From Arthrobacter sp. CAU 1506 (GTDB taxonomy: Bacteria; Actinomycetota; Actinomycetes; Actinomycetales; Micrococcaceae), in the NCBI RefSeq assembly GCF_005047635.1, contig NZ_SUKC01000011.1:62001-126000 (forward strand): a stretch of DNA of 64,000 bases, given 5' to 3'. The notes beneath the pieces were generated by a model. That model saw only the letters and a program-made list of their open reading frames with translations, was not told the origin of the DNA and made no database searches. A program made the position numbers and the translations under genes. Shown here piece by piece: positions 30,955-63,843 of the stretch (position 1 is its first letter; every line of letters begins with the position of its first letter).

Positions 30955-31144
30955 GCCCTGATCGGCCTGGGCTGTTGGCATGGACTCCTAGGGCTTGCCA
31001 ACACCTTGCCGGCCGGCACGGCCACCTGGTTTGCCGGCCGCTGAGGACCCCTGCCGGACCTCTTGCCGGAACGTAGTCCTGCCATTCAATAAGCTGCGCA
31101 TCGTCAGTAGGATGAAGGCCCAGCCTGCGTTTGAGGAGTCCGTC

Positions 31145-32206
31145 ATGAAAGCTGCGCGCTACTACGACCAGAGGGACATCAGGATCGAGGACATTCCGGA
31201 GCCGGAACTCAAACCCGGAACGGTCGCCATCGACGTGGCGTGGTGCGGCATCTGCGGCACCGATCTGCACGAGTACCTGGAAGGACCAATCTTCATTCCG
31301 CCCAAGGGCTCGCCACACCCCATCTCGGGCGAAGAGGCACCGGTGACCATGGGACATGAGTTCTCCGGGACGATTTCCGCCCTGGGCGACGGAGTCACCG
31401 ACCTGGAAGTCGGCCAGAACGTGGTGGTTGAGCCCTACATCATCCACAGCGACGTCGAGACCGGCCCCGGCCATGCCTATCAGCTGTCCAAGGACATGAA
31501 CTTCATCGGGCTGGGCGGACGCGGCGGCGGGCTGTCCGAGAAGATCGTGGTGGAGCGCCGCTGGGTCCACGCGATCGGGGACATTCCGCTGGACCAGGCG
31601 GCGCTGATCGAACCGCTCTCGGTGGGACACCACGCTTTTGTGCGCAGCCAGGCGAAGTCCGGCGATACCGCCATTGTCGGAGGGGCTGGGCCCATTGGCT
31701 TGCTGACCGCGGCCGTACTCAAGGCCTCCGGCTTGACCGTCTATATCTCGGAACTCAGCGAGGCGCGCAAGAAAATGGCCCGGGACACCGGCGTCGCGGA
31801 TCAAGTATTCGACCCGAGGGACGGCGATGTTGCCCAGCGCGTCCGTGACCTGACGGGCGGCAAGGGCGCCGACGTCGGTTTCGAGTGCAGCTCGGTCCCG
31901 GTTGTCCTGAACATGCTGATGGATGCCGTCCGGCCGGGTGGCGTCATTGTCAACGTCTCCATCTGGGGCCACAAGCCCGAAGTGGATATGCCTTCCTTGG
32001 TGCTCAAAGAGATCGACCTGCGCGGGACAATCGGCTACGCGAACGACCATCCCAGCACCATTAAGCTGGTGCAGGAGGGCAAGCTGGATTTGGCCCCGTT
32101 CATCACCGCGAAGATCCCGCTGGACGACCTCGTCTCCGGCGGCTTCGACCAGCTGATTAACAACAATGAGGAGCACGTAAAGATCTTGGTGAATCCGACG
32201 GCATGA
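31145..32206 (+). CDS. Zn-dependent (R,R)-butanediol dehydrogenase-like enzyme
   Basis: Medium-chain alcohol dehydrogenase, 353 residues, likely interconverting 2,3-butanediol and acetoin with NAD. Catalytic zinc residues are present: Cys37 in WCGICGTD, His71 and Glu72 in MGHEF. The Rossmann region is GGAGPIGLLTAAVL. The usual structural-zinc loop with four Cys is missing: between VVVEPYI and FIGLGGRGGG (roughly residues 95-125) no Cys occurs. ATG 31145 has GAGGAG 7 nt upstream. The next gene overlaps it by 4 nt. Confidence 0.87.
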   Translation: MKAARYYDQRDIRIEDIPEPELKPGTVAIDVAWCGICGTDLHEYLEGPIFIPPKGSPHPISGEEAPVTMGHEFSGTISALGDGVTDLEVGQNVVVEPYIIHSDVETGPGHAYQLSKDMNFIGLGGRGGGLSEKIVVERRWVHAIGDIPLDQAALIEPLSVGHHAFVRSQAKSGDTAIVGGAGPIGLLTAAVLKASGLTVYISELSEARKKMARDTGVADQVFDPRDGDVAQRVRDLTGGKGADVGFECSSVPVVLNMLMDAVRPGGVIVNVSIWGHKPEVDMPSLVLKEIDLRGTIGYANDHPSTIKLVQEGKLDLAPFITAKIPLDDLVSGGFDQLINNNEEHVKILVNPTA

Positions 32207-53863: not shown

Positions 53864-55578
53864 GGCTGCTCCTGCAGGATTCGCTGGGACGGTCTGGAAA
53901 GGGAGGCGGCTGCGTCCACCGTGCGGGCGTTCACGAAAGCCAGCCGCGCCCGGTCCGCAGGGGCCTGGGGGTGATCGCTGCGGAAGTGCGCGCCGATGCT
54001 GTTCTGCCGCGCGGCGGCGGCCGCCACGACCAGCCGGGCCAGGGTCAGCAGGGCGGCATCCTCGACCGGCGCGGTACCGGTGGCCGGCAGGTGCCGCTGC
54101 GCCAGCTGCCGGGCCGCGTCCTGCAGCGCCGCGCCGTCACGCACCACGCCGGCGGCCGCCGCCATTAGGGTCTGGATCTGTTTGCGCGTGCACGGGGTGG
54201 TTCCTTCATCCGGCCCGCTACCGGCATGCCGGGTGTCGCTCCCCGGGAAACCTGTCGGGACGCCGGTCGGGAGGCCAACATCCAGCGGCACCGCGCGGAA
54301 CTCCGGCGCAGTGGCCGGCCTGTCCAGCGCCGCGACGGCGCGGCGGGCGAAGACCAGCCCCTCCAGCAGCGAGTTCGAGGCCAGCCGGTTGGCTCCGTGT
54401 ACTCCGGTGCAGGCCACCTCGCCCACCGCGAAAAGTCCGGGCATCGAGGTCCGGCCGTCTGCGTCGGTTTGCACCCCGCCCATCCAGTAATGCGAGGCCG
54501 GGCGCACCGGCAGCGGCTGGCTGGTCCAGTCGAAGCCGAGCGAGCGGACCGTGGCATCGATCAGCGGGAACCGCGCGGCCAGGAAGCCGGGGCCCTTCTC
54601 CCGCTCCACGGCCGTGGCGTCCAGGAAGACCTGCGGCACCAGGCCACGTTCCTCCTGCAGCCGCAGCTGCTGGTGGATGCAGCGCGAGACCACGTCCCGG
54701 GGCGCCAGTTCGGCGACCGGGTGCAGTGCCGGCATGAACCGCTCCCCGGCGGCGTCCACCAGCACGGCCCCCTCGCCGCGCACCGCCTCCGAGATCATGA
54801 ACGGGCTGCCGCCGGTGGCCGCCGGGTCCAGCAGGGTGGGGTGGAACTGGATGAACTCCAGGTCGGCCAACACCGCCCCGGCGTCCCAGGCCAGCGCCAC
54901 GCCGTCGCCGGTTGCCGTGGCCGGGTTGGTGGTGGCCGGGAACAACTGCCCCGCTCCGCCGGTCGCCAGAATCACGACGTCGGCGGCCAGCTGCGCCGGC
55001 GCCGCATCCCCGGCGTTGGCGTCGGTCCGCACTTCCGTCGCTTCCACCCCGGTGACGCGGCCCCCGTCCAGCAGCAGCCGCCGCACCCGGGTGTGCTCGA
55101 GGATGTGCAGCCGCCCTTCTTCGGCCAGGCGGCGGACCACCCGGATCAGCACTTCGGCGATGCCGGCTCCGGTCCGGTCGCCGCCGGCGTGCAGGATCCG
55201 CGCCGCCGAGTGCGCTCCTTCGAGGCCGAGCGAGAATCCCTCGCCATGCCGGTCGAAGGGCACACCCCACTCTTCCAAGGTGGCGATCTCCTGCGCCGCA
55301 CCTTCGCACAACAGGCGGACGGCGCCGTCGTCGTTCAGTTGCGCGCCCGCGCTGAGCGTGTCCGCCACGTGGGCCGCCACGGAGTCCCCTGCCGAGATCC
55401 CCTGCGCGGTCACCGCGGTGATGCCGCCCTGGGCGTGCCAGGTGTTGGACTCGGCCAACTTGCCCTTGGTGATGAGGGTGACGGCGGTGTCCGGCCGATT
55501 CGCGGCAAGCGCGGCGGCGTAGAGCCCGGCGATGCCGGAGCCCACCACCGCGATGCGCCGGGCGGCGTTGCTGTTCAC
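53860..55578 (-). CDS. nadB: L-aspartate oxidase
   Basis: FAD enzyme that oxidises aspartate to iminoaspartate, the first NAD-synthesis step. 572 residues, FAD motif IAVVGSGIAGLYAAALA, SNTWHAQGGITAV, VILATGGAGQLFPATTNPA, FIQFHPT and RGEGAVLVDAAGERFM, with C-terminal helices. GTG 55578 overlaps the nadA stop (GTGA), so synthesis of the two is coupled. Confidence 0.96.
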   Translation of the reverse strand: MNSNAARRIAVVGSGIAGLYAAALAANRPDTAVTLITKGKLAESNTWHAQGGITAVTAQGISAGDSVAAHVADTLSAGAQLNDDGAVRLLCEGAAQEIATLEEWGVPFDRHGEGFSLGLEGAHSAARILHAGGDRTGAGIAEVLIRVVRRLAEEGRLHILEHTRVRRLLLDGGRVTGVEATEVRTDANAGDAAPAQLAADVVILATGGAGQLFPATTNPATATGDGVALAWDAGAVLADLEFIQFHPTLLDPAATGGSPFMISEAVRGEGAVLVDAAGERFMPALHPVAELAPRDVVSRCIHQQLRLQEERGLVPQVFLDATAVEREKGPGFLAARFPLIDATVRSLGFDWTSQPLPVRPASHYWMGGVQTDADGRTSMPGLFAVGEVACTGVHGANRLASNSLLEGLVFARRAVAALDRPATAPEFRAVPLDVGLPTGVPTGFPGSDTRHAGSGPDEGTTPCTRKQIQTLMAAAAGVVRDGAALQDAARQLAQRHLPATGTAPVEDAALLTLARLVVAAAAARQNSIGAHFRSDHPQAPADRARLAFVNARTVDAAASLSRPSQRILQEQP

Positions 55579-56903
55579 GGCTTGGCTGCCAGCATCCGTT
55601 CCAGCGCCACGCGGGCGGGGACGGCCACGGAATCGGACACGGTGATCCGGTTCAGCACTTCGCCGCCGGGCACTTCGCCGGTGCCGGCGTAGGCCTCGAG
55701 CACCCAGGCCAGGTAGCCCGGGTGGATCCGGTACATGGTGGAGCACGGGCAGATCACCGGATCCAGGCAGAAGATGGTGTGCTGCGGGTACTCGGCGGCC
55801 AGCCGGTTGACCATGTTGATCTCGGTGCCGATGGCGAAGACCGTCGGCTCGGTGGCCGCCGCCACGGCCTTGCGGATGTAGTCGGTGGAGCCGGCTTCGT
55901 CCGCGGCGTCCACCACCGGCATGGGGCATTCGGGGTGCACGATGACCCGGACGCCGGGGTAATCGGCGCGGGCCTTGTCGATCTGGTCCACCGTGAAGCG
56001 CTTGTGCACCGAGCAGAAGCCGTGCCAGAGGATCACCCGCGAGTCGAGCAGCGTGGCTTCGTCGTTGCCGCCGAGTGGTTGGCGCGGATTCCACATGGGC
56101 ATCTGTTCCAGCGGCACACCCATGGCCTTGGCGGTATTGCGGCCCAGGTGCTGGTCCGGGAAGAAGAGCACGCGGTGGGCGCGCTCGAAGGCCCATTCCA
56201 ACACGGTCTCGGCGTTCGACGAAGTGCAGACAATCCCGCCGTTCTCGCCGCAGAATCCCTTGAGCGCGGCCGACGAATTCATGTAGGTCACCGGGATGAC
56301 CGGGACCTTGCCGTCCGCGTCCGGACCGCTGCCGAGCACACCGGTGAGCTGGTCCCAGCAGGCCTGCACCGAGTCGATGTCCGCCATGTCCGCCATCGAG
56401 CAGCCGGCCGCCAGGTTCGGCAGGATCACCGCTTGGTCGGGGCCGGAGAGCATGTCAGCGGTTTCGGCCATAAAGTGCACCCCGCAGAACACGATGACCT
56501 CAGCTTCGGGCTTCTCCTTGGCGGCGCGGGCCAACTGGAAGGAATCGCCCACGAAGTCGGCGTATTTGACCACTTCGTCGCGCTGGTAGAAGTGGCCCAG
56601 GATCACCAGCTTCTCGCCGAGCTTCTGCTTGGCGGCAAGGATCCGCGCCTCCAGCTCCGCGTCGCTGGCCAGCCGGTATTCGGCCGGAATCTCGCCCTGC
56701 CGCGGGGTGGCGGCGGGCGCCGGATCGGCCAACGAGGCGCCCGGCCCGTAGGACGGCGCCCACGCTCCGCTGGCCGACGCGGTATCAAAGGTCCACGGCC
56801 CCTCGGCCAGCCCGGGTGTGCAGGTGGACGCGGGCGCACCCGCGCCGGCAGCCAGCGCTTCCTCGCGGGTGATCAGCTGGATGGTGCTGTTGACCGATGG
56901 CAT
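55575..56903 (-). CDS. nadA: Quinolinate synthase
   Basis: 4Fe-4S enzyme that condenses iminoaspartate with dihydroxyacetone phosphate to quinolinate. 442 residues; an N-terminal extension of ~90 residues is common in actinobacteria. Core motifs: LVILGHFYQRDEVVKYADFV, IVFCGVHFMAETADML, VIPVTYMNSSAALKGF, GGIVCTSSNAETVLEWA, VIVHPECPMPVVDAAD and CPCSTMYRI, with Cys ligands in the family positions. ATG 56903 has GGAGAA upstream. It follows nrtR by 62 nt and is probably co-transcribed. Confidence 0.97.
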   Translation of the reverse strand: MPSVNSTIQLITREEALAAGAGAPASTCTPGLAEGPWTFDTASASGAWAPSYGPGASLADPAPAATPRQGEIPAEYRLASDAELEARILAAKQKLGEKLVILGHFYQRDEVVKYADFVGDSFQLARAAKEKPEAEVIVFCGVHFMAETADMLSGPDQAVILPNLAAGCSMADMADIDSVQACWDQLTGVLGSGPDADGKVPVIPVTYMNSSAALKGFCGENGGIVCTSSNAETVLEWAFERAHRVLFFPDQHLGRNTAKAMGVPLEQMPMWNPRQPLGGNDEATLLDSRVILWHGFCSVHKRFTVDQIDKARADYPGVRVIVHPECPMPVVDAADEAGSTDYIRKAVAAATEPTVFAIGTEINMVNRLAAEYPQHTIFCLDPVICPCSTMYRIHPGYLAWVLEAYAGTGEVPGGEVLNRITVSDSVAVPARVALERMLAAKP

Positions 56904-56965
56904 GGTGTTCTCCGATGTTCTGGGCAGGTGGTCAAGTCTGGGTGTCCGTGGTGCGCGCAAGGCTG

Positions 56966-57673
56966 TCAGGCGGGCGGGCTGCCGCTGAGCTGGGCGGCGC
57001 CGCCGGTGTAGCGGTAGAGCCGGGGCGGCCGGTGCCGGCCGCCTTGCAGGTACTCGTCGGTCGGTTCGATGTCCGGCGTGGCGCGCAGCTGGCGGCGGAA
57101 GTTGGCGGGATCGAGCTGCCTGCCCAGCACGGCCTCGTAGACTTCGCGGACCTGCGCCAGCGTGAACGTGGAGCCCAGGAAGGCGTAAGCGATGGAACTG
57201 TATTCCACCTTGTTGCGCAGCCGCCACAGCGCGTACTCCACGATGTGGTTGTGGTCGAAGGCCAACTGTCCAAGGTCGTCGGCGCGCACCCAGCGGACGT
57301 TCTCCGTCTCGCGGGCCAGCGCCGCCTCGTCCGGCTTCACCAGGGCCCAGTAGACAATCGAGACCACCCGCTGGACCGGCGAACGGTCCAGGCCTCCGAA
57401 CGCGTAGAGCTGCTCGAGGTAGCTCGGTTGCAGTCCGGTGGTCTCCTGCAGATTCCGGGCCGCCGCATCCTGCAGCGCTTCGTCCGGGCGGAGCGGCCCG
57501 CCGGGCAGCGCCCAAAGATCACGGAAAGGCTGGCGCGTGCGCCGGACCAGCGGCAGCCACAGCGTGGGGCCGCCGGCTTCCGGGTCCGGACGCAGGGCAA
57601 AGATGACTGTGGAAATTGCCAGTTCCGGGGGCTGTTGCGCGCGCTCGGACACGTTGGCTGAATAGACCGGCAT
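56966..57673 (-). CDS. nrtR: NrtR-type NAD-biosynthesis regulator (Nudix + winged helix)
   Basis: 235 residues. The N-terminal two thirds is a Nudix domain (ALPGGPLRPDEALQDAAARN then LQETTGL). The usual REUXEE catalytic set is degraded (RNLQET), as in NrtR, which binds ADP-ribose without cleaving it. The C-terminal winged helix reads FLGSTFTLAQVREVYEAVLG, NFRRQLRATPDIEPTDEYLQ then GRHRPPRLYRY, the NrtR DNA-binding pattern. First gene of nrtR-nadA-nadB-nadC-nifS. Two palindromes upstream (57702-57750) suggest it controls its own operon. Confidence 0.9.
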   Translation of the reverse strand: MPVYSANVSERAQQPPELAISTVIFALRPDPEAGGPTLWLPLVRRTRQPFRDLWALPGGPLRPDEALQDAAARNLQETTGLQPSYLEQLYAFGGLDRSPVQRVVSIVYWALVKPDEAALARETENVRWVRADDLGQLAFDHNHIVEYALWRLRNKVEYSSIAYAFLGSTFTLAQVREVYEAVLGRQLDPANFRRQLRATPDIEPTDEYLQGGRHRPPRLYRYTGGAAQLSGSPPA

Positions 57674-57867: not shown

Positions 57868-58425
57868 ATGCAGCCAGAGGAGCAGCGCCGCCGGTTCGAG
57901 TGGCCGGACAACGAGGAGATCCTGCGTCGTCGCTACGGTGCCAAACCGCGGCCGGCGAACCACCGCGTGGTGCTGGGCAGCCATGCGTTCTTCAAGGGCT
58001 GGCTGGTGGCCTTCGGTTCGTGGTTCGCTTTTTCCCTGACCATCAGCATCATCGACACGGTTGTATCGCCAGACTCGGCAGCCCTGAGCTTCTGGGGCCT
58101 GGCGCTGATGGTCAGCTTTTTCTTCGCCGCACTCCTGGGCGCGCCGGCTGCCCTCGCGGTGGCCGCCCTACTCCGTCCCGTGCGCCGGCAGTGGATCCAT
58201 GTCCTGGTATTCGCCGTCGGCCTGGGCGGGTTCACGTGGGCCGTTTTTGCCGGCCTCGCTCCGGAAACGGGAGCCCTGCCTGCCGTCGTCGCCGCGATCG
58301 CCGGAACCGCAGCCGGACTCGGCCGGGCGGCGGTGATTCCCGACGTCGATATTTACGACGTCGAAATTTACGACGGCGGCGACGGCCACAGTGCCGAGGT
58401 CAGCGGGGATCGGCAGCAGCTTTGA
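57868..58425 (+). CDS. Predicted four-helix membrane protein
   Basis: 185 residues. After a polar, Arg-rich N-terminus (EEQRRRFEWPDNEEILRRR) come about four hydrophobic segments (WLVAFGSWFAFSLTISIID, ALMVSFFFAALLGAPAALAV, WIHVLVFAVGLGGFTWAVF, ALPAVVAAIAGTAAGLG) and a short acidic tail. No recognised family. TAGGCT at 57855-57860 ends 7 nt before the ATG (leaderless). Its last 26 nt overlap the convergent Lrp gene. Confidence 0.72.
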   Translation: MQPEEQRRRFEWPDNEEILRRRYGAKPRPANHRVVLGSHAFFKGWLVAFGSWFAFSLTISIIDTVVSPDSAALSFWGLALMVSFFFAALLGAPAALAVAALLRPVRRQWIHVLVFAVGLGGFTWAVFAGLAPETGALPAVVAAIAGTAAGLGRAAVIPDVDIYDVEIYDGGDGHSAEVSGDRQQL

Positions 58426-58873
58426 CCAGCGGGAGCGTTCGCTCCCGAAAATGGCTGTTGAGGACGATCACCGAGGACGAGCGGAGCACCGTATTGGTCG
58501 CCATCACCTCATCGAGGACGCGCTGCAAATCCGCATTCGAACGGGCCACCACACAGGCCAGCAGGTCGCTTTCGCCGGACACGGTATGCAGTTCCAGCAC
58601 TTCCGGAATCTCGGCGAGCGCAGCGGCCACCGCGTCGTGGCCGGATTCCTGCCGGATCACGAAAGAACAATAGGCGCGCACGACGTAGCCCAGCGCTTCG
58701 GGAGATAGCCGGGGGCCCCAGCCCGACGTCACACCGGCGCGTTGCATCTTGTCCAACCGGGCCTGTACTGTGGCACGCGCTACTTTCAGTACCCGCGAGG
58801 CTTCCAGCACGGACATCCGCGGGTCCTCCGTGAACAGCGCGACGATGTCGGCATCGAGAGAGTCGATCTGCAT
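58400..58873 (-). CDS. Lrp/AsnC-family regulator
   Basis: 157 residues from ATG 58873 (AAGGAC upstream); a second in-frame ATG at 58903 lacks a ribosome site. HTH reads LDADIVALFTEDPRMSVLEA and ARATVQARLDKMQ, and the C-terminal RAM/AsnC effector domain reads VIRQESGHDAVAAALAEIPE and VSGESDLLACVVARSNADL. Divergent from an amino acid permease, with palindrome GACAAATTGTC (58926-58936) between them, so it probably regulates that transporter. Confidence 0.9.
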   Translation of the reverse strand: MQIDSLDADIVALFTEDPRMSVLEASRVLKVARATVQARLDKMQRAGVTSGWGPRLSPEALGYVVRAYCSFVIRQESGHDAVAAALAEIPEVLELHTVSGESDLLACVVARSNADLQRVLDEVMATNTVLRSSSVIVLNSHFRERTLPLVKAAADPR

Positions 58874-58925
58874 GACGCTGGGCGTCCTTTCACGTTCGGT
58901 CATCGCCGGGTGCGGGAAACCGCTA

Positions 58926-58936
58926 GACAAATTGTC
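58926..58936. promoter_or_regulatory. Candidate Lrp/AsnC operator
   Basis: Perfect palindrome GACAA-A-TTGTC in the 101-bp divergent promoter region between the Lrp-type regulator and the amino acid permease. Confidence 0.6.
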
Positions 58937-58974
58937 AGCCTTCGGGCTGCTTTCACCAAACAACAGGACAGTCG

Positions 58975-60387
58975 ATGCCACGACCGCGAGCCAATACCGC
59001 ACACCACCGCGACTCCACCGGCACGGCGCCCGGCAGGCTTGGCCACGGCATGAAACAGCGCCAGCTGATCATGATGGGTCTCGGCAGCGCGATCGGCGCC
59101 GGGCTTTTCCTCGGCTCCGGAGCGGGCATCCAGGCCGCCGGGCCCGCCGTGCTGATCTCCTACCTGTTGGCCGGCACGCTGGTGATCATCGTGATGTGGG
59201 CCCTGGGTGAAATGGCCGCGGCCAACCCCAGCAGCGGCGCCTTCTCGACGTACGCGGAGAAGGCGCTCGGCCGCACTGCCGGCGCCACCATCGGCTGGCT
59301 CTGGTGGCTGCAGTTGGTCGTGGTGATCGCGGCTGAGGCGGTCGGGGCCGCCGGCCTCTTGGCCACCATCTGGCCGTCGCTGCCTGTCTGGTTGCTCGCG
59401 CTGGTCTTCATGGTGGTCTTCACGGTGATCAACCTCTTCGGTGTGCGCAACTACGGAGAATTCGAGTTCTGGTTCGCCATCTTCAAGGTCGTCGCCATCC
59501 TGGCCTTTCTCGCCATCGGTGCGGCGCTGATCTTTGGCTGGCTGCCCGACGTGGCCTCGCCCGGACTGGGCGTGATCTTCGGCGAAGACGGTTTCGCCCC
59601 CAACGGCATCGCCGGCATCGGCGCCGGGCTGCTGGTGGTGATCTTCGCCTTCGGCGGCACCGAGATCGTGGCCGTAGCGGCAGCGGAGACCGAAAACCCG
59701 GGCACCAGCGTCGCCAAGGCCATCCGCACCGTGGTCTGGCGCATTCTGGTGTTCTACTTCGGGTCCGTGCTGGTCATCGCCTTGACCGTGCCGTGGGATT
59801 CGCCCGCCTTGGCATCCCCCTTCGCCGCGGTGCTCTCCGAGGCGAAGATTCCCGGGGCGGACACAGCCATCACCTTGGTCGCAGCCATCGCGCTGCTCTC
59901 GGCACTCAACGCCAACCTGTACGGGGCCTCGCGGATGATTTTCTCCCTCTCGGAGCGGGGCGAGGCGCCTCACGCACTGCAACGGCTCAGCCAGCGCCGG
60001 GTTCCGATGAGGGCGGTGTTCGCGTCCGTGGCCTTCGGCTTCGTGGCCACCGTGCTGGAACTGGTCTTCCCGGAGCGGGTCCTCCCTGTGTTGCTGAATA
60101 TCGTTGGGTCGACCTGCCTGGTGGTCTGGGGGATGGTGCTGCTGTCCCAGTTGGTGTTGCGCCGCCGGGCTGACCGCGAGGGCACCGAACTGCCGTTCCG
60201 GATGCGCGGCTTCCCCGCCGTCACCTTCATCGGCCTGGCCTTGCTGACCATCATCCTGGTGCTGGGTTTCTTCTCCCCGGCCACCGGCATTCAACTGCTC
60301 TCCACCCTGGGGCTCATTGCCGGCATCGCCGTAGCGGCGAAAATCAACGCCCGCAGAAACACGGCAAAAAGCCCCGTTGCCCCCTGA
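58975..60387 (+). CDS. Amino acid permease, AAT/GABA-permease family
   Basis: 470-residue APC-superfamily transporter with about 12 helices. KQRQLIMMGLGSAIGAGLFL is the signature of the first helix, followed by ALGEMAAANPSSGAFSTYAE, FGGTEIVAVAAAETENPGTS and LNANLYGASRMIFSLSERG. ATG 58975 has AGGACA upstream; an internal ATG at 59050 is also possible. Controlled, by position, by the divergent Lrp-type regulator. Substrate unknown; many relatives carry proline, GABA or aromatic amino acids. Confidence 0.92.
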   Translation: MPRPRANTAHHRDSTGTAPGRLGHGMKQRQLIMMGLGSAIGAGLFLGSGAGIQAAGPAVLISYLLAGTLVIIVMWALGEMAAANPSSGAFSTYAEKALGRTAGATIGWLWWLQLVVVIAAEAVGAAGLLATIWPSLPVWLLALVFMVVFTVINLFGVRNYGEFEFWFAIFKVVAILAFLAIGAALIFGWLPDVASPGLGVIFGEDGFAPNGIAGIGAGLLVVIFAFGGTEIVAVAAAETENPGTSVAKAIRTVVWRILVFYFGSVLVIALTVPWDSPALASPFAAVLSEAKIPGADTAITLVAAIALLSALNANLYGASRMIFSLSERGEAPHALQRLSQRRVPMRAVFASVAFGFVATVLELVFPERVLPVLLNIVGSTCLVVWGMVLLSQLVLRRRADREGTELPFRMRGFPAVTFIGLALLTIILVLGFFSPATGIQLLSTLGLIAGIAVAAKINARRNTAKSPVAP

Positions 60388-60569: not shown

Positions 60570-61616
60570 ATGAGCGACACTCTTGCCCTGGACCCGTCGG
60601 CCCAGCCCGACCTGTCCGCCGAAGACCTCAAGGAGCTCTACCGGCTGATGGTGGCGGTGCGCCACCTGGACGAATCAGCCATCCGCTGGCAGCGCCAAGG
60701 GCTGATTCCCGGCTACGCGCCGGAGCTTGGCCAGGAAGCCGCGCAGGTCGGCAGCGGCTACGCACTGGATATGGAACGGGACTTCGTGTTTCCGACCTAC
60801 CGGGAAATGGGCGTGGCCCGCACCGTGGGCGTGGATATGGTCGAGTACATGTCCACCCACAAGGCCAGCTGGCACGGCGGACTGTACGATCCCCAAGCAT
60901 CCCGCTTCGCCCCGATCCAGGCCGTGGTGGCCGGCTCCGTGCTGCACGCCGTCGGCTGGGCCCACGGCCAGACGCTTTCCGGCACCCCTGCCGGCGAGCT
61001 CGGGGTGGCCATCACCTACTTCGGCGACGGCGCGAGCTCGCAGGGCGACGTGCATGAAGCCATGAACTTCGCGGCCGTCATGAAGGCCCCCGTGGTCTTC
61101 TTCATCCAGAACAACGGATTCGCCATCTCGGTGCCAACCGAGCGCCAGGTGGCCGGCGGCTCGGTGGCCGCCCGCGCCGCCGGATACGCCATGCCGTCGC
61201 TCCAGGTGGACGGTAACGACGTCGTGGCCGTGCACCAGGCCACGGCTGCCGCTCTGGCCCACGCCCGCTCCGGCAACGGCCCGGCGATCGTGGAAGCCAT
61301 GACCTACCGCCGCGGCCCGCATTCCACCAGTGACGACCCGGGCCGCTACCGCACCCTGGCCGAGGAACGGGCCGACGGCGGAGAGGATCCGCTGGCCCGG
61401 ATGCGCAGCCTGCTGCTGTCCGAGGGCGTCGCCGGCGAGGACTTTTTCGCTGAAACGCTCGAAGCCGCCCAGGCCGAAGAGGAACGGATCCGCCAGGGTG
61501 TGGGAGCACTTGGTTCCCGGCCGGGCACTGAAATGTTCGATTTTGTCTATCAGGAACCCACCCATGCCTTGAAGGCCCAGGCGCGCGCCTGGCGAGAGGA
61601 GTCCGAGCATGTCTGA
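60570..61616 (+). CDS. 2-oxoacid (BCKDH/acetoin) dehydrogenase E1-alpha
   Basis: Thiamine-diphosphate decarboxylase subunit, 348 residues. The ThDP-binding motif starts GDGASSQGDVHEAMNFAAVM and ends IQNNGFAIS (about residues 152-182). The phosphoserine-loop sequence RRGPHSTSDDPGRYR (His251) is characteristic of branched-chain oxoacid E1-alpha; acetoin AcoA is close. ATG 60570 has GGAGGAG 6 nt upstream. It overlaps E1-beta by 8 nt. Confidence 0.92.
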   Translation: MSDTLALDPSAQPDLSAEDLKELYRLMVAVRHLDESAIRWQRQGLIPGYAPELGQEAAQVGSGYALDMERDFVFPTYREMGVARTVGVDMVEYMSTHKASWHGGLYDPQASRFAPIQAVVAGSVLHAVGWAHGQTLSGTPAGELGVAITYFGDGASSQGDVHEAMNFAAVMKAPVVFFIQNNGFAISVPTERQVAGGSVAARAAGYAMPSLQVDGNDVVAVHQATAAALAHARSGNGPAIVEAMTYRRGPHSTSDDPGRYRTLAEERADGGEDPLARMRSLLLSEGVAGEDFFAETLEAAQAEEERIRQGVGALGSRPGTEMFDFVYQEPTHALKAQARAWREESEHV

Positions 61617-62709
61617 GCACACCACTCTCAGCGACCTCGAAGCCGCCATCGACAATACGTTCGGCACCGACGCCCAGCAGGCGTCCGCCGATGTGGTGGA
61701 GCCCGCCGTGGTCACCGCCGTCGAGACCCTCTCCATGCAGCAGGCGCTGAACCGCGCACTGGCCGAGGTGCTGAAGGACAACCCCAAGGCACTGGTGCTG
61801 GGCGAGGACGTCGGACAGCTCGGCGGCGTCTTCCGGATCACCGATGGCCTGCAGAAGAAGTTCGGAGAGGACCGGGTCTTCGACACTCCGCTGGCCGAAT
61901 CGGGCATTCTGGGCATGTCGGTGGGCCTGGCCATGGCCGGCTACCACCCGATCCCCGAGGTGCAGTTCGACGGCTTCGCCTACCCGGCAATCAACCAGAT
62001 TGTCTGCCAGGTGGGCCGCATGAACTACCGCAGCCGCGGCACCATGCCGATGCCGATCACGCTGCGGGTACCCAGCTTCGGCGGCATCCGCGCTCCGGAG
62101 CATCACGGCGAGTCGCTGGAATCGCTGTTCGCCCACGTACCCGGACTGAAGGTGGTCTCCCCCTCCAGCCCGAACGAGGCCTACCACTTGCTCAAGCACG
62201 CCGCGACCCGGCCGGATCCGGTGATCTTCATGGAACCGAAGTCCCGTTACTGGCAGAAGGGCCCGGTGGATACGTCGCCCGCGGCCGATGCCTACTCCCC
62301 CGAAGGTTCCCGGATTGTCCGTGAAGGCAAGCACCTGACGCTGGTGGCCTGGGGTGCCATGGTGGCCCGCTGCCTGCAGGTGGCGGAGCTCGCCGCCGAA
62401 GACGGCATCGACATCGAGGTGCTGGACCTGCGCTGGCTCAAGCCGATCGACGCCGAGGGACTGGCGGCGTCCGTGGCCAAGACGCGACGCGCCGTCGTCG
62501 TGCATGAAGCGCCGCTGACCTCCGGCCTGGGCGCAGAAGTGGCAGCGCTGATCACCGAGCGCTGCTTCGGCACCCTGCGTGCGCCCGTTGAACGGGTGAC
62601 CGGATTCGACGTACCGTACCCGTCAGGAGATCTGGAAGACGAGTACGTACCCAACATTGACCGCATCCTGTTCGGGATCCAGCGAGTATTGGAGTATCGC
62701 CGTGGCTGA
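61609..62709 (+). CDS. 2-oxoacid (BCKDH/acetoin) dehydrogenase E1-beta
   Basis: 366 residues. Transketolase-type E1-beta: MQQALNRALAEVLKDNPKAL, GEDVGQLGGVFRITDGLQKK, RVFDTPLAESGILGMSVGLA, FDGFAYPAINQI and VVHEAPLTSGLGAEVA. An N-terminal ~41-residue extension before the usual start is acidic (DLEAAIDNTFGTDAQQAS) and atypical. ATG 61609 overlaps E1-alpha by 8 nt, and the lipoyl gene overlaps its end by 8 nt. Confidence 0.93.
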   Translation: MSEHTTLSDLEAAIDNTFGTDAQQASADVVEPAVVTAVETLSMQQALNRALAEVLKDNPKALVLGEDVGQLGGVFRITDGLQKKFGEDRVFDTPLAESGILGMSVGLAMAGYHPIPEVQFDGFAYPAINQIVCQVGRMNYRSRGTMPMPITLRVPSFGGIRAPEHHGESLESLFAHVPGLKVVSPSSPNEAYHLLKHAATRPDPVIFMEPKSRYWQKGPVDTSPAADAYSPEGSRIVREGKHLTLVAWGAMVARCLQVAELAAEDGIDIEVLDLRWLKPIDAEGLAASVAKTRRAVVVHEAPLTSGLGAEVAALITERCFGTLRAPVERVTGFDVPYPSGDLEDEYVPNIDRILFGIQRVLEYRRG

Positions 62710-63034
62710 AATTTCGTTCCCCTTGCCCGACTTGGGCGAAGGCCTGATCGAAGCGACCGTGCTGGAGTGGCTGGTTGCCGAGGGCGAGCAGATCGAGCGC
62801 AACCACCCGCTGGTGGAGGTGGAGACCACCAAGTCGGCCGTCGAGCTGCCCTCGCCGCAGGCCGGCAAGGTGGTGAAAATCTACGGCGGCCCCGGTGACA
62901 TCATCAAGGTTGGCGAACCGCTGATCGTCTTCGAGGTTCCCGACGACACCGCCGGTATTGTGGGCACTGTACCGAAGGAAGAAGCGCCCAAGCGCCGCGT
63001 CCGCTTGACCGCGGCGCTCGACGACGAGGACTAA
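62702..63034 (+). CDS. Stand-alone lipoyl-domain protein (E2 without acyltransferase)
   Basis: 110 residues only. Residues 1-80 are a full lipoyl domain with Lys44 in VEVETTKSAVELP and GGPGDIIKVGEPLIVFEV. The tail (KEEAPKRRVRLTAALDDED) is a charged linker. There is no peripheral subunit-binding domain and no catalytic acyltransferase, which are standard in E2. GTG 62702 overlaps E1-beta as GTGGCTGA. The hydrolase gene starts 2 nt after the stop. Confidence 0.9.
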   Translation: MAEISFPLPDLGEGLIEATVLEWLVAEGEQIERNHPLVEVETTKSAVELPSPQAGKVVKIYGGPGDIIKVGEPLIVFEVPDDTAGIVGTVPKEEAPKRRVRLTAALDDED

Positions 63035-63036
63035 GC

Positions 63037-63843
63037 ATGGGAACCCACCGGGAGCACACCGTTGAAGGCGTTGACCCGCACCTGCACGTGCAGGTGCACG
63101 AGGCCGCCGAGGGCACCGAAGGTCCTCGCCGCCCAGTGATCCTGCTCCACGGTTTCGCCTCCTCCGCCAAGCTCAACTGGGAGGACGCCGGCTGGATCAC
63201 CGCGCTGACGCAGGCGGGTCGGCGCGTGGTCACGGTAGACCTTCCCGGCCACGGCGAAAGCACCGCCCCCGAAGAAATGGATGCCTACGCGCCCAGCCGG
63301 ATCCGTGCCGACCTGCTGCAGTTGATTCAGGACGCCAAGGTCCGGCTCTTGAAAGAGGACGACGGCGACACCGGGGTGGACCTGATCGGCTACTCCCTGG
63401 GTGCCCGGCTGGCATGGGAATTCGGCGCCACCCAGCCGGAACTGGTCCGGCGGATGGTACTCGGCGGCCCGGGCAGCGCAGACCCGCTGGCAGACTTCGA
63501 CCTGCATGCCGCTCAGCGCTTCCTGGCCGACGGGACGCCGATCGAGGACGTCAACACCGCTGAACTGCTGCGGATGGCCAAGCTGGTGCCGTCCAACGAC
63601 ATCTTCGCGCTGATGACCATGATCGAAGCGATCAAGACGGAACCGTTTGTGCCGGCCGAAGCTGTGCCAAAAATGCCCATCCTGCTGGTGGCCGGCGACA
63701 GGGACGACCTGGCGTCCACCGCTCCTGAGCTGGAGGCGCTCGCCGAGGCAGCCGAATTGGTGTGGCTGCCTGCCCGCACGCACGCCAATGCGGTGACTTC
63801 CCGCACCTTTAAGACCGCCGCCATCGAATTCCTCGCCGGATAA
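63037..63843 (+). CDS. Alpha/beta hydrolase, probable second half of a split AcoC-like E2
   Basis: 268 residues, alpha/beta hydrolase fold. Oxyanion loop LLHGF, nucleophile Ser120 in GYSLGARLAW, Asp near 221-224 in VAGDRDDLAS and His249 in ARTHANAV. Acetoin dehydrogenase AcoC of Cupriavidus and Pseudomonas carries a lipoyl domain joined to this fold, so the lipoyl gene plus this one look like its two halves. Last gene of the tight cluster. A fresh -10-like TACAAT follows before the kinase gene. Confidence 0.85.
   Translation: MGTHREHTVEGVDPHLHVQVHEAAEGTEGPRRPVILLHGFASSAKLNWEDAGWITALTQAGRRVVTVDLPGHGESTAPEEMDAYAPSRIRADLLQLIQDAKVRLLKEDDGDTGVDLIGYSLGARLAWEFGATQPELVRRMVLGGPGSADPLADFDLHAAQRFLADGTPIEDVNTAELLRMAKLVPSNDIFALMTMIEAIKTEPFVPAEAVPKMPILLVAGDRDDLASTAPELEALAEAAELVWLPARTHANAVTSRTFKTAAIEFLAG

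Follow-up and report, generated by a model that had tools for sequence, protein, structure and literature searches.

In a typical 2-oxoacid dehydrogenase, a large E2 core forms the centre of the complex and passes acyl groups to coenzyme A (CoA). AcoC, the E2 of acetoin dehydrogenase, is held to pass its acyl group to CoA, and an earlier reading of the DNA discussed here (hereafter the original prediction) correctly stated that AcoC-type E2s join a lipoyl domain to an alpha/beta hydrolase: fused E2s composed of a lipoyl domain, a peripheral subunit-binding domain (PSBD) and a hydrolase were found beside E1 genes. The H protein of glycine cleavage and LbpA follow the logic of a free-standing lipoyl carrier, and a 2-oxoacid dehydrogenase operon of Haloferax volcanii is reported to place an unattached lipoyl domain beside its E1 genes. 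The human alpha/beta hydrolase ABHD11 hydrolyses glutaryl-lipoyl and displayed no specificity for glutaryl-CoA (PMC12643935). Here, a set of genes encoding E1-alpha, E1-beta, a lipoyl-only protein and an alpha/beta hydrolase is described from Arthrobacter sp. CAU 1506, within a stretch of 64,000 nucleotides (contig NZ_SUKC01000011.1, positions 62,001 to 126,000; hereafter the window). A literature search by title and abstract opening, with most subscription papers outside its coverage, found no description of such a gene set.

Bioinformatic analysis showed that the set is a real, conserved variant of 2-oxoacid dehydrogenase whose E2 is reduced to a carrier (Table 1). As originally predicted, the four genes are tightly coupled, with 8-nt overlaps between E1-alpha and E1-beta and between E1-beta and the carrier, and with 2 nt separating the carrier stop from the hydrolase start. 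The Pfam matches of all four proteins (E1_dh; Transket_pyr and Transketolase_C; Biotin_lipoyl; Abhydrolase) lie well above the gathering score, and domains together with gene order bore out the proposed reduction of E2 to a lipoyl-only protein beside a separate hydrolase.

Table 1. Positions of the four-gene set and its neighbours in the window
Feature	Position	Strand	Remarks
E1-alpha of 2-oxoacid dehydrogenase (branched-chain/pyruvate type)	60570..61616	+	348 aa; PF00676, E=8e-74
E1-beta	61609..62709	+	366 aa; PF02779 and PF02780
Lipoyl-only carrier	62702..63034	+	GTG start, 110 aa; PF00364
Alpha/beta hydrolase	63037..63843	+	268 aa; PF00561/PF12697; putative acyl-lipoyl deacylase or transferase
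Lrp/AsnC-family regulator, divergent from the operon	58400..59002	-	Pfam AsnC_trans_reg and HTH_AsnC-type
Amino-acid permease, optional member, start uncertain	59050..60387	+	PF00324; best NCBIfam model gamma-aminobutyrate permease, below cut-off
NadA-like quinolinate synthase and NUDIX/NrtR-like gene, adjoining the set	55575-57673	-	

The carrier (P0003) presents the predicted lipoylation site Lys44 in the motif ETTKS, and the lysine was kept in 83 of 83 aligned orthologues. Neither a PSBD (PF02817) nor an acyltransferase core (PF00198) was detected in it by the Pfam run that recovered both domains in three complete E2s of this genome. Its match to GCV_H reached only 17.2 bits, below the cut-off; although it shares the logic of a free-standing carrier with the H protein and LbpA, it is an E2-type lipoyl domain encoded beside E1-alpha and E1-beta. 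The lipoyl domain is followed by a strongly conserved basic tail (GIVGTVP..EAPKRRVRL, residues 84-104). By eye, a similar (L/I)(V/I)G.G motif with basic residues after it occurs in the linkers of the full E2s of the genome, and the tail perhaps has a docking role. The structure model of the carrier was poor (pLDDT 63.6, with a weakly modelled lipoyl fold and values <50 for residues 84-110) and was not used as evidence.

To define the distribution of the set, named genomes of Arthrobacter, Pseudarthrobacter, Paenarthrobacter, Sinomonas, Zhihengliuella, Psychromicrobium and others were scanned, and the best 80 of 194 relatives were taken as the named loci, with the full 8 kb of flank on both sides in 68 of them. 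E1-beta, carrier and hydrolase follow one another as separate genes in 80/80 of these loci, the carrier being 109-110 aa long; E1-alpha is present in 79, the exception (L212) being truncated by a contig end. In the family sample the carrier was found in 65 of 197 genomes and the hydrolase (E<=1e-30) in 127, including 63 of the 65 with the carrier, and in all 63 the hydrolase lay on the contig and strand of the carrier with aligned ends 6 to 334 nt apart. In the other two carrier genomes, G313 and G351, the gene caller placed a divergent hydrolase open reading frame (ORF) about 2 nt past the carrier; the ORF of G313 (L249) gave a Pfam match and its sister in G351 (L250) none at 1e-4, and both keep all four residue positions checked in the alignment. 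In genome G373 the carrier match crosses a single stop, which may be the terminal codon of the gene itself. A sample of the order yielded the carrier in 13 of 297 genomes (>=165 bits; the runner-up, at 91 bits, was the lipoyl domain of an E2). The separation of carrier and hydrolase across the 80 named loci excludes a frameshift or assembly error, so the suspicion that the pair was a broken fusion gene is discarded; the two are likewise apart in 63 of the 65 family genomes and at all 12 loci read in a second family.

A full-length E2 close to the set, which the original prediction would have taken as its refutation, was not found: no core match (E<=1e-8, against the three bkd-type E2s of the genome) appeared in the examined flanks of the 80 named loci. 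The genome encodes five E2 cores (PF00198), all on contigs other than that of the window. Three of them sit in their own E1-alpha, E1-beta, E2 operons, the fourth belongs to a frame of 598 residues that also carries two lipoyl domains, and the fifth to one of 1273 residues, presumably Kgd/OdhA. For E3, one protein encoded elsewhere in the genome exceeded the TIGR01350 cut-off and four more full-length matches fell below it.

In a class-wide sample, the carrier occurred in 16 of 296 genomes, namely 14 of a second actinobacterial family (f35), the Arthrobacter genome itself and one genome of family f19. The f35 carriers are 57-64% identical to that of the window, and the loci of 12 of the 14 matching genomes were read. 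Each of the 12 has the four genes arranged as in the window, among quite different neighbours, with no E2 core match, and the tail pattern GIVG.VP followed by RRVRL is kept in 12/12 carriers. The f35 hydrolases share 37-41% identity with the hydrolase of the window. By eye, one kind of small divergent gene stands upstream in all 12 loci, and the one tested was of the AsnC type by Pfam; the Lrp regulator of the window gave no match to the AsnC-type upstream genes of f35. Mere synteny within one family was considered, as the hydrolase also occurs alone at the nadA/nrtR locus, and was rejected because the four genes recur in f35 with different flanks.

The E1 pair is related to branched-chain systems. 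E1-alpha has the loop GPHSTSDD, whose HSTSDD part we take as a branched-chain indicator, and it scored 389.8 bits against TIGR03181, below the cut-off of 411.35. Identity to the three full-E2 sets of the genome is 42-48% for E1-alpha and 50-51% for E1-beta, and the pair groups with these branched-chain/pyruvate-type E1s and not with the AcoA/AcoB type. A tree built from 14 joined E1 pairs, with few rows and a single long branch, united the nine lipoyl-only pairs from actinobacteria in one clade (99/100) that excluded the three full-E2 pairs of the genome as well as two AcoC-linked pairs; an earlier E1 tree likewise placed the pair of the window away from three AcoC-linked pairs. The AcoC reference in these trees consists of the E1 pairs of AcoC-type plasmid loci rather than E1s of proven acetoin activity. 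From these data, we infer that the actinobacterial form arose once, when the E2 of a branched-chain-type system was truncated. Relative to a Bkd-type complex, the set shares the E1 kinship, the HSTSDD loop and an Lrp-type regulator, but it lacks an E2 with PSBD and acyltransferase and instead contains a free lipoyl domain and an extra hydrolase. Both the Lrp gene and the kinship of the E1 pair hint at an amino-acid-derived 2-oxoacid as the substrate.

A comparable row of E1-alpha, E1-beta and a lipoyl-only protein of 79 residues was observed on a plasmid of Sphingobium sp. RAC03 (L247:2484-4740), where it is followed by a pyrroloquinoline quinone-dependent dehydrogenase. In the earlier tree its E1 pair fell outside the actinobacterial clade, on a long branch with the AcoC-linked pairs, and the Sphingobium set apparently is independent of the actinobacterial ones.

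Based on this composition, we propose, with a probability of roughly 45%, that E1 loads a diffusible lipoyl carrier and the co-encoded hydrolase unloads it, E2 having been cut down to the carrier. E1-alpha/beta with thiamine diphosphate would decarboxylate the 2-oxoacid and transfer the acyl group to lipoyl-Lys44 of the 110-residue carrier, and the hydrolase would then strip it off via an acyl-enzyme at Ser120. A free carboxylic acid is the more likely product, transfer to CoA as in AcoC being less likely, and the dihydrolipoyl group would be re-oxidised by a shared E3 encoded elsewhere. The E1 chemistry and the carrier loading are proposed because they are established knowledge of these families; for this set, lipoylation, transfer from E1 to the carrier and the chemistry between hydrolase and carrier are inferred. 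The hydrolase is put forward as the unloader because neither an acyltransferase core nor a subunit-binding domain is encoded in the set, and two precedents, the AcoC-type fused E2s and ABHD11, make it the best candidate. The chemistry proposed is that of ABHD11, a serine alpha/beta hydrolase acting on acyl-lipoyl, and the hydrolase of the set has an intact Ser-Asp-His set: Ser120, Asp223 and His249, assigned as the triad from conserved positions and motif rather than a solved structure, are invariant in 35/35 and 36/36 rows of two alignments, and its AlphaFold2 model is confident (mean pLDDT 94.6). The two proteins differ in that ABHD11 takes the adduct off a complete complex, and they are compared here as members of one superfamily. 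In favor of the proposal, this hydrolase stands behind the carrier in 63 of the 65 family genomes (a divergent one in the other two), at each of the 80 named loci and at each of the 12 f35 loci read. The single E1 clade, the lack of E2 core matches around the set and the E3 encoded elsewhere also speak for it.

Several observations weigh against this assignment of the hydrolase. Its fold matched generic alpha/beta hydrolases with TM 0.54 to 0.72 by query length among the 50 matches listed, its sequence matches to solved structures were equally generic, and its match to AcoC-type proteins was weak. As for the precedent, the effect of ABHD11 on succinyl-lipoyl was slight and non-significant (PMC12643935), so activity on a wider range of acyl groups is not established. 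The Sphingobium set, outside the clade, has no hydrolase beside it. In the family sample, 64 of the 127 hydrolase genomes contain no carrier gene, and 25 of these 64 were read in context. A trace of E1-beta (E = 6.6e-5) stands just before an intact hydrolase in L255, weaker traces of E1-beta and carrier lie beside an intact hydrolase in L252, and in L258 the regulator, permease and hydrolase are left while E1 and carrier are gone. The remnants in L255 and L252 point to loss of E1 with retention of the hydrolase. On a tree of 54 hydrolases, in which genome G014 was entered twice, the carrier/no-carrier label needs 13 changes, at least 7 of them forced by supported branches. Taken together, the solitary hydrolases, the tree changes and the remnants indicate that the hydrolase has a use without this carrier; its repeated survival without E1 and carrier was not anticipated by the original prediction. 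Furthermore, the hydrolases of the two families are not one clade, those of f35 falling with carrier-less hydrolases of other families (97/91), and hence the partnership was broken in several lineages or formed twice. The split can be read as a looser bond between the two or as two independent pairings of similar partners.

The main rival, which we regard as unlikely, is that this E1 loads the carrier and the acyltransferase core of another complex unloads it onto CoA, with the hydrolase as an unrelated or housekeeping neighbour. Five E2 cores are available in the genome, three of them in operons of related E1s, and Corynebacterium offers a precedent, as its E1o (OdhA) uses the lipoyl domains of the pyruvate dehydrogenase E2 (PMC7568260). 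The persistence of the hydrolase without E1 and carrier, and its failure to be co-inherited with the carrier as one clade across the two families, also fit such service in trans, which nevertheless leaves unexplained why a hydrolase follows the carrier in 65/65 family genomes (two divergent) and at every named and f35 locus read. Survival without E1 and carrier would equally suit a wider lipoyl clientele, in which the hydrolase would act as the bacterial equivalent of ABHD11, clearing dead-end acyl groups from the lipoyl arms of several complexes and preventing stalling when it stands beside the carrier. ABHD11 provides the precedent for such repair (PMC12643935); however, the comparison runs through 7c4d, the esterase used to model ABHD11, which was one of many generic matches, and repair gives no forward route for the acyl group. 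This reading is improbable.

In another scenario, the set would make a free arylacetate, such as 4-hydroxyphenylacetate, from an arylpyruvate for the neighbouring homoprotocatechuate (HPC) pathway. Genes of the HpaG, HpaE and HpaD types lie downstream in the genome of the window, and among the 80 named loci 20 have them within flanks of up to 8 kb. HpaB-family genes were found in 34 of the 65 genomes with the carrier and in 26 of the 132 without it, counts uncorrected for kinship or genome size. However, HpaD is near-universal in the family (180/197), HPC genes also stand near the hydrolase in carrier-less genomes (L253, L254, L258, L267 and L268), the genome of the window has no HpaB match, and the 12 f35 loci have no HPC genes beside the set apart from one weak HpaE-like match at the edge of L280. 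The link is thus weak, and this scenario is very unlikely. The idea of a split AcoC, with the fused E2 of an acetoin dehydrogenase divided between two proteins, deserves still less credit and is close to untenable. AcoC-type fusions do unite the same two fold types to serve an E1 pair, and NF011457, the AcoC model, was the best NCBIfam match of the f35 hydrolase in L273, although below threshold (60.6 bits). In contrast, AcoC is one chain with a PSBD, whereas the window encodes two proteins without a PSBD and with E1s of another clade. Carrier and hydrolase scored 48.8 and 51.8 bits against a cut-off of 307, and none of the 296 genomes of the class passed the model. Acetoin, which the original prediction had kept as a candidate substrate, is accordingly disfavored, since the E1 pair stands away from the AcoC-linked pairs and both proteins fall short of the model.

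If the hydrolase does unload the carrier, a lineage without an E2 core, equipped with a small, probably diffusible carrier and a hydrolase, would work like the glycine cleavage system, and the pathway could end in free acid and NADH in place of acyl-CoA. It would also bring acyl-lipoyl hydrolysis, a reaction reported in 2025 for human ABHD11, into a bacterial context. The part of the hydrolase in the set is a testable question, as all components are small enough for in vitro work. A more far-reaching and rather doubtful version is a CoA-independent 2-oxoacid dehydrogenase in which a dedicated acyl-lipoyl thioesterase, and not an E2, frees the acid, the E1-carrier pair having arisen once and persisted next to a hydrolase of this kind in two or more families of actinobacteria.

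Around the set, the regulator of the window was matched in 78 of the 80 named loci and the permease in 70. The NadA/NrtR-like pair, matched in 74, also stands beside many hydrolases without E1 and carrier. The gene at 31145, described in the original prediction as butanediol dehydrogenase-like, is an ORF (30995-32206) that Pfam assigns to the zinc medium-chain dehydrogenases; its butanediol identity found no support, as the 17 NCBIfam models matched at E<=1e-8 include no butanediol dehydrogenase and all score below their cut-offs.

AcoC-type E2s were observed on plasmids of Shinella, Rhizobium and Nitratireductor (L244, L245 and L246), where E1-alpha, E1-beta and the E2 accompany a sugar ATP-binding cassette transporter, a carboxymuconolactone decarboxylase-like protein and an FGGY kinase. 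The lipoyl-PSBD-alpha/beta hydrolase domains were checked in L244 and L246, and these loci look like an AcoC-like E2 in a sugar operon. Among the fused E2s, P0006 passed NF011457 (449.5 bits) and P0005 missed it (299.6 vs 307).

Downstream of the window, a kinase-like gene (named by eye) accompanies the HpaG-, HpaE- and HpaD-type genes. At L014:2859-4367, beside HpaE and HpaD, an HpaG-like isomerase/decarboxylase and an RraA/aldolase-like domain form one fusion protein (NF009399, 819 bits). Genomes G001 and G003 each contain two equal-scoring HpaD copies far apart on one contig, suggesting a duplicated HPC cluster.

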